Source of the DNA: Streptomyces nigrescens
GTDB lineage: Bacteria > Actinomycetota > Actinomycetes > Streptomycetales > Streptomycetaceae
Direction: 5' to 3'
Assembly: GCA_024349765.1 (NCBI GenBank)
Contig: AP026073.1
Location: forward strand, 7,006,001 to 7,070,000
Length of the DNA stretch: 64,000 bases
The stretch's first letter is position 1, and every line of letters begins with the position of its first letter. Below the pieces are notes generated by a model. It searched no databases. It saw nothing but the letters and a program-made list of their open reading frames with translations, and was not told the origin of the DNA. The position numbers were made by a program, and so were the translations under genes. Shown one piece after another: positions 7,177-47,489 of this stretch.

Positions 7177-9096
<1,920 letters not shown>

Positions 9097-9120
9097 ACAA
9101 CGCAGCAGTCGGTCGGCGCC

Positions 9121-9324
9121 TCAGCCGGCCACCCGGACCATGTCCGCCTGCGGCCCCTTCTGGCCCTGCGAGATCTCGAACTCGACCCGCTGGCCCTCCT
9201 CAAGGGTGCGGTAGCCGTCCATCTGGATCGCGCTGTAGTGGACGAATACATCCGCACCACCGTCGACCGCGATGAAGCCGTACCCCTTCTCCGCGTTGAA
9301 CCACTTGACGGTGCCCTGAGCCAT
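9121..9324 (-). CDS. Cold-shock domain protein (CspA family)
   Basis: 67 residues, a single OB-fold cold-shock domain. The RNA-binding motifs RNP1 (KGYGFIAV) and RNP2 (DVFVHYSAI) are intact. It binds single-stranded RNA/DNA and probably acts as an RNA chaperone. The 5' flank to 9560 is comparatively AT-rich and gene-free, compatible with a long structured leader. Several paralogues per Streptomyces genome are normal, and whether this one is cold-inducible cannot be read from the sequence. Confidence 0.96.
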
Positions 9325-9823
9325 GCCTAACTCCCCTATTACTGGCCCTTGCGCAGGACCGCACTCCGCGGACCCGGGTCAGACCTCACCCCGCGAAAGG
9401 CCCGTGGGGTGTGCGCCGGAACGCGTCGACCGCCGCTGAATGTATCTGGACCGATGCCCAGCGCAACAGGTCAATCGGACGAGAATTCTGGCGCCGGAGA
9501 ATCGGCTATATGCGGCGAAATCGCGATTCTCCCGGGCAAGCCGGGCCGGGCATAGACGTGCCTAACCGACAAATGCCGCACACACTTTGAGCACAACTCA
9601 GCACGGATTCTTATGCGCTCGGCATACCCGGGGACATATACAGCGAGGAGATCGCCACAATGCTATCCCCTTTCACGAAACGGAATTGCCCCGTCCGATT
9701 TCGATGGACGGGGCAATTCCGGTCAAGCGGGGGGAGAGATGGCGCAAATCCACGCCTGTTCGATCACCATCCGGACGGTGCCGCGCGCCAGGAAGGGACA
9801 CGCGGCCGGGCCCGGACGGAAGG
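9325..9823. other. Gene-free stretch between csp and sulfur-carrier gene
   Basis: No supported gene. It contains the csp promoter/leader side, a lower-GC segment at about 9540-9680, and the strong hairpin at 9682-9720. A short frame from the ATG at 9660, behind GAGGAG, runs straight through the hairpin and is not accepted. Confidence 0.6.
9682..9720 (-). terminator. Terminator of the riboswitch operon
   Basis: Perfect 15-bp inverted repeat (9682-9696 and 9706-9720, 9-nt loop) about 100 bp past the sulfur-carrier stop, likely ending the ThrC-like/sulfur-carrier transcript. Confidence 0.75.
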
Positions 9824-10102
9824 TCAGCAGCCTCCGGCGACCGCGGGGATGATCGAGACGCCCGCGCCGTCCGGCGTCGGCGTCTCCAGGCCCTGCTCGA
9901 AGCGGACGTCGTCGTCGTTGACGTAGACGTTCACGAAGCGGCGCAGCTTGCCGGCGTCGTCGAGCACACGGGCCGCGATGCCCTGGTGGTTCTTCTCCAG
10001 GTCGGCGATCACCGCGGAGAGGGTCGCGCCCTCGGCGGTGACCTCGGCCTCGCCGCCGGTGTACGTGCGGAGGATGGTGGGGATGCGGACCTTGACGCTC
10101 AT
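9824..10102 (-). CDS. MoaD/ThiS/CysO-type sulfur carrier with GGC tail
   Basis: 92-residue ubiquitin-fold protein resembling CysO (VRIPTILRTYTGG...VNVYVNDDDVRF...IIPAVAGG). Family members carry sulfur as a C-terminal Gly-Gly thiocarboxylate made by an adenylyltransferase. Here the protein ends Gly-Gly-Cys, so one residue masks the diglycine and would have to be removed by a JAMM/Mec-type peptidase before activation. It lies 54 bp after the ThrC-like gene in the same SAM-riboswitch transcript. That places it in homocysteine or cysteine formation rather than molybdopterin synthesis (inference). Confidence 0.88.
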   Translation of the reverse strand: MSVKVRIPTILRTYTGGEAEVTAEGATLSAVIADLEKNHQGIAARVLDDAGKLRRFVNVYVNDDDVRFEQGLETPTPDGAGVSIIPAVAGGC

Positions 10103-10156
10103 GGTTCTGCCTTCCGGACGGGGATTACGGAGTACGGGTTCGGAAACGGCGCGGGC

Positions 10157-11449
10157 TCAGCCGGCCAGGCCGGCCGCGCGGAACGCATCCAGGTTCGGAC
10201 GGATCGTGGCCGTGGGCCCGGTGGTCGGCGCGACCGCGTCCAGCGTCTTCAGACCGTCACCCGTATTGAGGACAACGGTGGTCAGCGCCGGGTCGAGCAC
10301 ACCCTCCTCGATGAGCTTCTTGGTCACGCCGACGGTCACGCCGCCCGCGGTCTCCGCGAAGATGCCCTCCGTCCGGGCCAGCAGCTTGATCGCGTCCACG
10401 ACCTGCTCGTCGTTGACGTCCTCCACCGCACCGCCCGTCCGGCGCGCGATGTCCAGCACGTACGGGCCGTCCGCCGGGTTGCCGATCGCCAGCGACTTGG
10501 CGATGGTGTTCGGCTTCTGCGGGCGCACGACGTCGTGCCCGGCCTTGAAGGCCGTCGACACCGGCGAGCAGCCCTCCGCCTGGGCGCCGAAGATCTTGTA
10601 CGGCTTGTCCTCGACCAGCCCGAGGGCGATCAGCTCCTTGAGGCCCTTGTCGATCTTCGTCAGCTGGGAGCCGGACGCGATCGGGATGACGATCTGGTCC
10701 GGCAGCCGCCAGCCGAGCTGCTCGCAGATCTCGTAGGCCAGCGTCTTGGAACCCTCGCCGTAGTACGGCCGCAGGTTGACGTTGACGAAGCCCCAGCCCT
10801 CGCCGAGCGGGTCGCCGATGAGCTCCGAGCAGAAGCGGTTGACGTCGTCGTAGTTGCCCTCGATGCCGACCAGGTCACCGCCGTAGACCGCGGCCATGAC
10901 GACCTTGCCGGCCTCCAGGTCGTGCGGGATGAAGACGCAGGACTTGAAGCCCGCGCGGCGCGCCGCGGCGCCGACCGCGCCGGCGAGGTTGCCGGTCGAG
11001 GAGCAGGACAGGGTCGTGAAGCCGAAGGCGCGGGCGGCCTCGACGGCGATCGCGACGACGCGGTCCTTGAAGGAGTGGGTCGGGTTGCCGGAGTCGTCCT
11101 TGACGTACAGGCCGCCGGTGACGCCGAGCTCGGCGGCGAGCCGGTCGGCCTTGACGAGCTTGGTGAAGCCGGGGTTGAGGTTCGGCTTCTCGGCCACGTC
11201 GGTGGGGACCGGGAGCAGCGGGGCGTAGCGCCAGATGTTGTCCGGGCCGGCCTCGATCTGCTTCCTCAGGGCCTCGGGGTCGCCGCTCGGCAGGTCGTAG
11301 GCGACTTCGAGCGGCCCGAAACAGCTGGCGCAGGCGAAGATCGGACCGAGATCGAAGCGCTCACCGCACTCCCGGCAGGACAGCGCGACGGCGGGGCCCA
11401 GGGCGACGGGGGTCGTGTTTGCGGCGGTTTCGGTGACTTGCACAGCCAT
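10157..11449 (-). CDS. Threonine-synthase-like PLP enzyme, possible homocysteine synthase
   Basis: 430 residues (an alternative ATG at 11473 adds 8). The N-terminal zinc-ribbon-like segment has two CxxC pairs (CRECGERFDLG, CASCFG). A fold-type II PLP domain follows, with the cofactor lysine in THSFKDR and the SCSSTGNLAGAV phosphate loop. By family it converts O-phosphohomoserine to threonine. However, it is preceded by a SAM-I riboswitch and followed by a sulfur-carrier gene, with no hom or thrB nearby. Inference: it may use O-phosphohomoserine and a protein thiocarboxylate to make homocysteine. Ordinary threonine synthase activity remains the conservative reading. Confidence 0.85.
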   Translation of the reverse strand: MAVQVTETAANTTPVALGPAVALSCRECGERFDLGPIFACASCFGPLEVAYDLPSGDPEALRKQIEAGPDNIWRYAPLLPVPTDVAEKPNLNPGFTKLVKADRLAAELGVTGGLYVKDDSGNPTHSFKDRVVAIAVEAARAFGFTTLSCSSTGNLAGAVGAAARRAGFKSCVFIPHDLEAGKVVMAAVYGGDLVGIEGNYDDVNRFCSELIGDPLGEGWGFVNVNLRPYYGEGSKTLAYEICEQLGWRLPDQIVIPIASGSQLTKIDKGLKELIALGLVEDKPYKIFGAQAEGCSPVSTAFKAGHDVVRPQKPNTIAKSLAIGNPADGPYVLDIARRTGGAVEDVNDEQVVDAIKLLARTEGIFAETAGGVTVGVTKKLIEEGVLDPALTTVVLNTGDGLKTLDAVAPTTGPTATIRPNLDAFRAAGLAG

Positions 11450-11502
11450 GGAGGCGAGGCCCTTTCTCCTCATCTTCCTCGCGGCGCATCTCGTCGCGAG
11501 AC

Positions 11503-11612
11503 GGATTTGGCACCTTCCCTAGCCGGGAGCCTCGCGCGCTGTACGCGGAGACCGACTGGAGGGTTGCCGGGGCTTCAACGGGCCGTATCCCTCTGCCCCT
11601 CTGGATGAGCGG
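11503..11612 (-). promoter_or_regulatory. SAM-I (S-box) riboswitch
   Basis: Reading the minus strand, the conserved S-box blocks occur in order: CATCCAGAGGGGCAGAGGGA, then GGCCCGTTGAAGCC, CCGGCAACC, a variable stem, and GGTGCCAAATCC. These are the P1/P2 entry, the kink-turn, the pseudoknot loop and the SAM-pocket strand. It is followed by a small stem TCTCG-TCG-CGAGA (11489-11501). The CTCGCG segment at the end of the aptamer can pair with the CGCGAGG Shine-Dalgarno-like sequence just before the ATG at 11473. This suggests translational repression by SAM. Confidence 0.9.
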
Positions 11613-15054: not shown

Positions 15055-15103
15055 CACCACCGGCCGCCTCGGGGCGTGGTGCCCGGGGGTCCTGGGGGCT
15101 CCC

Positions 15104-16144
15104 CTAGGTGTATTGACCTGGAGCGTTGTTCACACGGCTGATGGGTGGCTTGCCGCCGAGTGCGGTGTGGCTGCGGTGGTGGTTGTAGGTGTGGAGGAAG
15201 CCTGTCAGGGCTTGGGTGCGTTCGGTGTTGCTGGTGTAGGGCCGGCTGTAGGCCCATTCGTCGAGCAGGGTGCGGTTGAAGCGTTCCACTTTGCCGTTGG
15301 TCTGCGGCCGGTAGGGCCGGATGCGCTTGTGGGCGATGCCGGCCGCGGTGAGGGTCCGGGTGAACAGCTTGGACTTGTAGCAGGAGCCGTTGTCGGTCAG
15401 GACGCGCTCGACGGTGATGCCGTGCGAGGCGAAGAAGGCTTGGGCCCGGCGCCAGAAGGCGATCGCGGTTTCCTTGCGTTCGTCGAGGAGGACTTCGCTG
15501 TAGGCCAGGCGCGAGTGGTCGTCGACGGCGGAGTGGATATAGCTGTAGCCGATCACCGGCTTGGAGCTCTTGCGCTGGTCGGTGGTGGCCTGCTTGTTGT
15601 GGGCGCCCGCAGTCCTGCCGACCGTGCGCCAGCCGCCTCCGGCGGGGATGTTGCCGAGTTTCTTGATGTCGACGTGGACCATCTCGCCGGGCCGGGCTCG
15701 TTCGTAGCGGCGGATCGGCTCGCCGGTCGGCCGGTCCAGCCAGGCCAGCCGGTGCAGGCCACGGCGGGTCAGGACCCGATGCACGGTCGAGGCCGGCAGG
15801 CCCAGGATCGGGCCGATCCTGGCCGGTCCCAGCTTGCGGGTTTGTCGCAGCGTGCAGATGCGGTCTTCGACGTCAGGCGCGGTGCGGTGTGGGGTCCTGT
15901 GCGGTCGACTGGAGCGGTCTTGCAGGCCGGCGTCGCCTTCTGCCAGCCACCGTCGCATCCACTTGTGGGCTGTGGGCCGCGATATGCCCATTTCGGCGGC
16001 GACGTGGGCCACGGGCCGTCCGCAGCGGACCCGTTCGACCAGCAGCCGCCTGCCGTGAACGGTCAGCCGGGCATTACGGTGGGACACGAAGACCTCCGTG
16101 TGGCGAAGCGTAGACACCTCCACCACATCGGAGGTCTTCGCCAT
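15104..16144 (-). CDS. IS481 family transposase, copy A
   Basis: 346 residues: an N-terminal HTH (MGISRPTAHKWMRRW), a second HTH (GLPASTVHRVL) and an rve integrase core with DD35E residues in MVHVDIKK, VLTDNGS and NGKVERFNRT. It is identical to copy B except in one spot near residue 194, where copy A has RKSS and copy B has RSMSS. The TAG stop codon lies in the CTAG target sequence outside the element end. Both copies appear intact and could be active. Confidence 0.97.
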   Translation of the reverse strand: MAKTSDVVEVSTLRHTEVFVSHRNARLTVHGRRLLVERVRCGRPVAHVAAEMGISRPTAHKWMRRWLAEGDAGLQDRSSRPHRTPHRTAPDVEDRICTLRQTRKLGPARIGPILGLPASTVHRVLTRRGLHRLAWLDRPTGEPIRRYERARPGEMVHVDIKKLGNIPAGGGWRTVGRTAGAHNKQATTDQRKSSKPVIGYSYIHSAVDDHSRLAYSEVLLDERKETAIAFWRRAQAFFASHGITVERVLTDNGSCYKSKLFTRTLTAAGIAHKRIRPYRPQTNGKVERFNRTLLDEWAYSRPYTSNTERTQALTGFLHTYNHHRSHTALGGKPPISRVNNAPGQYT

Positions 16145-16188
16145 TGATCAAGCCGAGCGGCTGTTAACAACGCTCGTGATCAATACAC
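15108..16188 (-). mobile_element. IS481-family insertion sequence, copy A (1081 bp)
   Basis: The ends read GTGTATTGA...TCAATACAC with imperfect inverted repeats of about 28 bp (shared core GAGCGTTGTT). It is flanked on both sides by CCTAGG, the NCTAGN target known for IS481. It is oriented head-to-head with copy B. Confidence 0.95.
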
Positions 16189-16192
16189 CTAG

Positions 16193-17276
16193 GTGTATTG
16201 ATCACGAGCGTTGTTAACAGCCGCTCGGCTTGATCAATGGCGAAGACCTCCGATGTGGTGGAGGTGTCTACGCTTCGCCACACGGAGGTCTTCGTGTCCC
16301 ACCGTAATGCCCGGCTGACCGTTCACGGCAGGCGGCTGCTGGTCGAACGGGTCCGCTGCGGACGGCCCGTGGCCCACGTCGCCGCCGAAATGGGCATATC
16401 GCGGCCCACAGCCCACAAGTGGATGCGACGGTGGCTGGCAGAAGGCGACGCCGGCCTGCAAGACCGCTCCAGTCGACCGCACAGGACCCCACACCGCACC
16501 GCGCCTGACGTCGAAGACCGCATCTGCACGCTGCGACAAACCCGCAAGCTGGGTCCGGCCAGGATCGGCCCGATCCTGGGCCTGCCGGCCTCGACCGTGC
16601 ACCGGGTCCTGACCCGCCGTGGCCTGCACCGGCTGGCCTGGCTGGACCGGCCGACCGGCGAGCCGATCCGCCGCTACGAACGAGCCCGGCCCGGCGAGAT
16701 GGTCCACGTCGACATCAAGAAACTCGGCAACATCCCCGCCGGAGGCGGCTGGCGCACGGTCGGCAGGACTGCGGGCGCCCACAACAAGCAAGCCACCACC
16801 GACCAGCGCAGCATGAGCTCCAAGCCGGTGATCGGCTACAGCTATATCCACTCCGCCGTCGACGACCACTCGCGCCTGGCCTACAGCGAAGTCCTCCTCG
16901 ACGAACGCAAGGAAACCGCGATCGCCTTCTGGCGCCGGGCCCAAGCCTTCTTCGCCTCGCACGGCATCACCGTCGAGCGCGTCCTGACCGACAACGGCTC
17001 CTGCTACAAGTCCAAGCTGTTCACCCGGACCCTCACCGCGGCCGGCATCGCCCACAAGCGCATCCGGCCCTACCGGCCGCAGACCAACGGCAAAGTGGAA
17101 CGCTTCAACCGCACCTTGCTCGACGAATGGGCCTACAGCCGGCCCTACACCAGCAACACCGAACGCACCCAAGCCCTGACAGGCTTCCTCCACACCTACA
17201 ACCACCACCGCAGCCACACCGCACTCGGCGGCAAGCCACCCATCAGCCGTGTGAACAACGCTCCAGGTCAATACAC
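16193..17276 (+). mobile_element. IS481-family insertion sequence, copy B (1084 bp)
   Basis: Same ends as copy A in inverted orientation, flanked by CCTAGG at both junctions. The shared central CCTAGG serves as flank for both copies, so one copy most likely inserted into the duplicated target of the other. Confidence 0.95.
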
Positions 17277-17280
17277 CTAG
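16237..17280 (+). CDS. IS481 family transposase, copy B
   Basis: 347 residues. Catalytic residues are Asp159, Asp252 and Glu288, giving the DD35E spacing. The start ATG lies 44 bp inside the element. The final codon is ACC and the stop TAG is made from the flanking CTAG target, so the reading frame closes only when the element sits in its proper target. It is divergent from copy A; the two transposase promoters face each other across the centre of the palindrome. Confidence 0.97.
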   Translation: MAKTSDVVEVSTLRHTEVFVSHRNARLTVHGRRLLVERVRCGRPVAHVAAEMGISRPTAHKWMRRWLAEGDAGLQDRSSRPHRTPHRTAPDVEDRICTLRQTRKLGPARIGPILGLPASTVHRVLTRRGLHRLAWLDRPTGEPIRRYERARPGEMVHVDIKKLGNIPAGGGWRTVGRTAGAHNKQATTDQRSMSSKPVIGYSYIHSAVDDHSRLAYSEVLLDERKETAIAFWRRAQAFFASHGITVERVLTDNGSCYKSKLFTRTLTAAGIAHKRIRPYRPQTNGKVERFNRTLLDEWAYSRPYTSNTERTQALTGFLHTYNHHRSHTALGGKPPISRVNNAPGQYT

Positions 17281-17369
17281 GGCGGAGGCGAACACATCCC
17301 GTAGGGGACACGAACGCCCCCTGCGGGGCCACAACGGGGTGGGGGTGGCGGGTATTCCCGGCGAGGGGC

Positions 17370-47422: not shown

Positions 47423-47438
47423 AGTGGACTACACCACT
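47423..47438. promoter_or_regulatory. DasR-responsive element (dre) before msiK
   Basis: AGTGGACTACACCACT matches the palindromic dre consensus AGTGGTCTAGACCACT in 14 of 16 positions, 51 bp upstream of the msiK ATG. Confidence 0.8.
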
Positions 47439-47489
47439 CCTTTTACTCGGATCGTCCGGCACGTTCCTGCCGGTGAAGGGACTCTCACC

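Follow-up and report, generated by a model that had tools for sequence, protein, structure and literature searches.

Which amino acid is served by a threonine synthase-like enzyme whose gene lies behind a SAM riboswitch and in front of a gene for a sulfur carrier? The question is raised by a locus in a window of 64,000 nucleotides (positions 7,006,001-7,070,000 of contig C1, in a 9.33 Mb genome of two contigs). An initial annotation had described an S-box aptamer, a ThrC-like PLP enzyme with N-terminal Cys pairs, a CysO-type carrier ending in GGC and a terminator after the gene pair. It had proposed that the enzyme uses O-phosphohomoserine and protein-bound sulfide to make homocysteine, while allowing that such a route might already have been described. 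All of these elements were recovered, in the minus-strand transcription order riboswitch, metM, metO and hairpin (Table 1). The locus is very probably a Streptomyces metM-metO operon with a predicted route from O-phosphohomoserine to homocysteine, and as such it is an ordinary instance of the MetM/MetO system, which is already known.

Table 1. Features of the metM-metO locus, in window coordinates.
Feature	Position	Strand	Basis
SAM-I (S-box) riboswitch aptamer, metM leader	11467..11611	-	Rfam RF00162
Expression platform: 3' strand of helix P1 and purine-rich stretch before ATG	11450..11480	-	sequence
metM-like gene, ThrC-fold PLP enzyme, 430 aa	10157..11449	-	Pfam PALP, NCBIfam TIGR00260, tree
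metO-like gene, ThiS/MoaD-fold sulfur carrier, 92 aa	9824..10102	-	Pfam ThiS
Perfect 15-bp hairpin 3' of metO, probable terminator	9682..9720	-	RNA fold

The aptamer matches RF00162 over the complete model (positions 1-108) with 78 bits, above the gathering score of 44.4 (E 1.2e-16). The metM product is recognized by Pfam PALP (220 bits) and by the NCBIfam thrC model TIGR00260 (268 bits, cut-off 167), and a four-cysteine motif (C25/C28/C40/C43) precedes its catalytic domain; by alignment, the PLP lysine is K128. The mechanical open reading frame runs from 11473, but the Met at 11449 is preferred as the N-terminus, since the alignments of many relatives begin there with residue 1. The metO product, which ends in PAVAGGC, matches Pfam ThiS (61.7 bits), and its nearest solved chain is 3dwg_C (E 1.2e-29), labelled '9.5 kDa culture filtrate antigen cfp10A', which we take to be CysO. 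The gene order is widely kept: in 106 of 110 loci, metO follows metM on the same strand, and of the other four loci three have no MetO within ~1.5 kb, while the fourth (L088) runs off its contig. The hairpin lies outside the segment first delimited, yet it is strong, the surrounding 81 bases (9740-9660) folding at -44 kcal/mol (z -6.3, equalled by 0 of 200 shuffles), and a role as terminator is probable. It was absent from a scan for consensus (T-run) terminators because it has no T-run. Further downstream on the same strand, at 7177-9324, are genes for a cold-shock protein and for a member of the GroEL/Cpn60 family.

Despite a TIGR00260 score over the cut-off, MetM groups apart from canonical ThrC. 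A tree built from 14 MetM and 16 ThrC proteins places the two groups on opposite sides of one branch (SH-aLRT 100). Across the same rows, 48 positions are invariant with the same residue in both groups, the SFKDR lysine among them, and another 26 are fixed to a different residue in each group. Canonical ThrC (solved chains 2d1f, 2zsj, 6cgq and 1uim) has its fold, the SFKDR lysine motif and its substrate in common with MetM. However, MetM has the extra N-terminal four-cysteine stretch, and several of the 26 substitutions fall in STGNT, NSVNPxR and VGNAG, which are present in all four solved chains. From ThrC to MetM, NSVNPxR becomes NVNLRPYY, PVGNAG becomes PIASGS and STGNT becomes STGNL. Among MetM-type frames, STGNL is found in 110/110, ASGS in 107/110 and N-x-N-L-R in 100/110, and a regular expression for two cysteine pairs (C..C, 8-16 residues, C..C) matches all 110. 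The nearest named loci are from Streptomyces, and 80 named loci encode proteins 87-96% identical to MetM of the window. Judged from the alignment, the fixed motif differences fit a changed reaction on the same substrate. The residues assigned to the phosphate site of Thermus ThrC were not confirmed, their numbering being one off against the alignment of the solved chains, and no roles are assigned to single residues.

The remainder of the genome bears on the same question. A second, canonical ThrC, 37% identical to MetM, is encoded at C1:6,334,637-6,335,719 between the homoserine dehydrogenase (hom) and homoserine kinase (thrB) genes, so that metM is not the sole threonine synthase gene and the homocysteine proposal survives. 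The search for metX that had been suggested found no MetX in the genome, the best match reaching 21.8 bits (9 of 14 controls gave a signal, Corynebacterium glutamicum among them, none over the 500-bit cut-off). MetA likewise had no match in the genome (8 of 14 controls gave a signal). The genome also encodes a threonine ammonia-lyase (L004).

The biochemistry comes from related strains. According to PMC12172450, Hasebe et al. (2024; Appl Environ Microbiol 90:e01247-24) identified in MetM a new homocysteine synthase of Streptomyces. In S. albulus, where a SAM riboswitch lies upstream of metM, the enzyme forms homocysteine from O-phosphohomoserine and keeps the organism from being auxotrophic for methionine, and metO of that species is a relative of the sulfur-carrier gene next to Microcystis thrC (PMC12172450). 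The ThrC-like enzyme, the neighbouring carrier, the SAM riboswitch, the Streptomyces host and O-phosphohomoserine are all shared between the published system and the locus, and no essential difference was found from MetM/MetO as described in PMC12172450. The proposed use of O-phosphohomoserine and protein-bound sulfide is thus supported by a published MetM reaction, a separate ThrC and the lack of MetX and MetA, and the route that was thought possibly described is indeed in print as MetM/MetO. The abstract of the original description is said to name thiocarboxylated MetO as the sulfur donor, to report wide conservation in Streptomyces and to state that acyl-homoserine synthesis genes are missing in many strains; the window genome, without MetX and MetA, matches that trait of the system. 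A Microcystis relative 51.6% identical to MetM, in turn, has threonine synthase and threonine deaminase activities in vitro, and methionine did not rise when it was highly expressed (PMC12172450). Given the Microcystis activities, members of the MetM family need not be strictly homocysteine synthases.

Two other systems in which a carrier thiocarboxylate delivers sulfur invite comparison. In the HcyS/HcyD route of Wolinella, a MetY-type enzyme acts on an acylated homoserine. Its carrier thiocarboxylate provides the sulfur of homocysteine, as proposed for MetO, but, unlike with MetM, neither O-phosphohomoserine nor a ThrC-type enzyme is known to take part. In the second system, CysM couples O-phosphoserine with thiocarboxylated CysO, and the CysO-cysteine adduct is hydrolysed by Mec (PMC3227635). 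The likeness to MetM/MetO extends to a ThiS-fold carrier, a thiocarboxylated glycine and a PLP enzyme acting on an O-phospho amino acid, with Mec freeing the product. However, the CysO-CysM-Mec system makes cysteine from O-phosphoserine (PMC3227635), its counterparts in the window genome lie in a separate cluster and the carrier groups are separate. Four genes of the ThiS fold (PF02597) are present in the genome. The one Prok-JAB protease gene reported there (PF14464) adjoins a ThiS-fold gene and a cysteine-synthase gene (at about C1:529.9-532.1 kb), and by analogy these three may be mec, cysO and cysM; matches to the corresponding NCBIfam equivalogs (cysM, desampylase) do not reach the cut-offs. 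In a carrier tree of 93 columns, MetO rows are apart from CysO-like rows (SH-aLRT 97), whereas the deeper order is weak because of the few columns and because 3 of 36 inner branches are starred. The carrier of the operon is accordingly MetO and not CysO, as it belongs to its own group and the CysO-like gene of the genome lies elsewhere, beside the Prok-JAB and cysteine-synthase genes.

By these comparisons, MetM, a paralogue of threonine synthase, would draw O-phospho-L-homoserine from the threonine pathway and eliminate its phosphate on the PLP held by K128. Sulfur from the thiocarboxylated C-terminal glycine of MetO would then be added at the gamma carbon, and the resulting MetO-homocysteine adduct would be released by hydrolysis or by Mec, the homocysteine passing to methionine synthase. 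An E1-like sulfurtransferase of the MoeZ type would thiocarboxylate MetO, by analogy with CysO. Since MetO is encoded with a GGC terminus, the terminal Cys must be removed to expose GG; this step would come first, and the likely agent is the one Prok-JAB protease reported for the genome. The Gly-Gly-Cys of the tail is the same linkage as that of the CysO-cysteine adduct, the substrate of Mec, and this single protease should therefore be able to remove the tail.

Of the readings that compete with this mechanism, the one that fares best, though unlikely, holds that free sulfide or mainly CysO is the sulfur donor of MetM and that MetO is accessory. An unidentified peak was seen when sodium sulfide was supplied with the Microcystis relative (PMC12172450), and in three of 30 genomes (G375, G192 and G327) MetM occurs with the SAM riboswitch but with no MetO within ~1.5 kb. 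All three were among 12 genomes checked with the MetO query, and each contains a single carrier at E <= 1e-6, which stands beside a Prok-JAB gene and groups with CysO. Because MetM and its riboswitch are kept there and the sole close carrier is CysO-like, CysO may feed MetM in these three genomes. Against a general role of this kind stand the position of MetO 3' of MetM in nearly all loci and the separation of its group from the CysO-like rows. MetO as the donor in the window genome therefore remains the preferred reading. A further suggestion combines the two pathways: Mec would mature GGC-ending MetO and free the products from both carriers, and where metO is missing, CysO would feed both enzymes. 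We regard this as possible but doubtful; if it is true, a shared Mec ties methionine synthesis to the carrier pathway of cysteine.

Less probable still is that homocysteine arises by transsulfuration through L007, from O-phosphohomoserine and cysteine as in plants, with MetM as a side route. L007 scores 685 bits with the cystathionine gamma-synthase model (NCBIfam cut-off 513), well ahead of L008 (315 bits) and L009 (206 bits) among the eight PF01053 matches of the genome, and with these proteins present transsulfuration chemistry is not absent. However, neither MetX nor MetA is there to make an acylated homoserine, metM carries the sole SAM riboswitch reported for the genome (from 150 scored first-look candidates out of 530), and it is MetM that prevents methionine auxotrophy in S. 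albulus (PMC12172450). Homocysteine synthesis by MetM is favoured on these grounds. One of the Cys/Met-metabolism PLP genes, L009/L010 (C1:7637721-7638723), is split over two frames, by a frameshift or a sequencing error. Least probable of all is that metM is merely a second threonine synthase whose carrier and riboswitch serve another purpose: the TIGR00260 score and the in vitro threonine synthase activity of the Microcystis relative (PMC12172450) speak for it, but it is rejected on neighbourhood, tree and motifs, as a canonical ThrC already sits between hom and thrB, MetM, which is accompanied by a SAM riboswitch and a carrier gene, stands on a separate branch with changes at positions conserved in ThrC, and the published function is homocysteine synthesis (PMC12172450).

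The metM aptamer is the only RF00162 match reported genome-wide, with the scoring scope given above. Besides the window, 109 related loci were available; 20 of these were scanned, and in 19, with proteins as little as 59% identical to MetM of the window, a SAM-I element precedes metM, while among the same 20 the locus L049 (MetM 58% identical) has none over threshold. A consensus terminator scan found no T-run terminator between the aptamer and metM. The 3' strand of P1 (GAUGAG) extends into the purine-rich stretch before the ATG, and translational control is therefore inferred. A similar stretch recurs in the Streptomyces leaders among 24 loci compared (start codons were picked mechanically and are wrong in some). 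Plentiful SAM would thus shut the metM-metO operon through the SAM-I riboswitch, probably at translation. The available portions of a review (PMC13257386) and of the contiguous-riboswitch paper contain nothing on the metM-metO locus.

The distribution of MetM was followed in 396 sampled Actinomycetota genomes, 258 of which have a match to the MetM query at E <= 1e-40. With MetM-type enzymes defined by E <= 8.1e-79 (including a few partial matches) and MetX by E <= 1e-40, 147 genomes have a MetM-type enzyme (44 with MetX and 103 without), 118 have MetX only and 131 have neither. The association of MetM with MetX is negative (odds ratio 0.47, ignoring kinship). Within the sample, the 20 genomes of the window's own genus all have MetM and a close ThrC, and 6 have MetX. 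Strict alternation of MetM and MetX was rejected, as both occur in 44/147 MetM genomes; these genomes and the 6/20 of the own genus imply that MetM is not always the sole route. At least three MetM-bearing genomes (G241, G056 and G094) have no strong match to canonical ThrC (best E 4e-56 to 2e-47); in these, threonine might be a further product of MetM, or ThrC might be missing from the assemblies. The concern that annotation as plain thrC would hide a methionine route was justified: as MetM scores above the NCBIfam thrC cut-off, the route can escape automated reconstruction. At the thresholds used, 103 of the 396 genomes have a MetM-type enzyme without MetX. Organisms for which no homocysteine route is known, Acidimicrobium ferrooxidans among them, are listed in a 2018 paper, which in its available portion mentions only 'the protein thiocarboxylate pathway' (PMC5764234). 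MetM is a candidate for the homocysteine route in such organisms.

The tail of MetO varies among close relatives. In 20 evenly drawn genomes of the genus it is GGC in 5 and GG in 15, whereas in 79 further named loci, those nearest to MetM of the window (one of them Streptantibioticus), it is GGC in 52 and GG in 27; the share of GGC is sample-dependent. Over the 99 genus-level loci combined, 57 end in GGC and 42 in GG, no other residue is found and every Cys codon is TGC. Ten loci outside the genus comprise four with GG, one each with GGC, GGA and GGI, and three with no metO nearby. GGC as an oddity of one strain was rejected, given its presence in 5/20 own-genus genomes and 57/99 loci. A one-time clade marker was rejected as well: on a quick tree of metM DNA, in which 29 of 96 inner branches are unsupported, the tail switches ~12 times, or 5 times if starred branches alone are trusted, compared with a mean of 32 for shuffled labels. 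A change from GGC-TGA to GGC-TGC-TGA is the duplication of one GCT triplet, and the recurrent appearance of Cys alone may thus have a mutational cause; the tail Cys was not accepted as proof of selection, as slippage alone could yield TGC. The presence of a JAMM protease is uninformative as a tail marker because PF14464 is found in 30/30 genomes whatever the tail. The CysO-like gene encodes residues after GG in 23 of the 25 genomes where it was found, with GGMV in the window genome. No description of the tail variation, or of MetM without MetO, was found in the literature on carriers and their processing that was covered, most subscription journals lying outside that coverage. The variation of the tail and the occurrence of MetM with only a CysO-like carrier pose small questions on carrier maturation and sharing.

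Two further features of the window lie apart from the operon. At 15102-17282, two IS481-family transposase genes stand head to head without a spacer, forming a near-perfect palindrome of ~2.2 kb between trehalose-phosphate synthase-like and trehalose-phosphatase-like genes. Its arms are 100% identical at 15571-16190/16191-16810 and 98% at 15102-15588/16796-17282; such an arrangement is uncommon and may be an artefact of the assembly. An Rfam msiK RNA element is located on the plus strand at 47431-47488 (51.1 bits).
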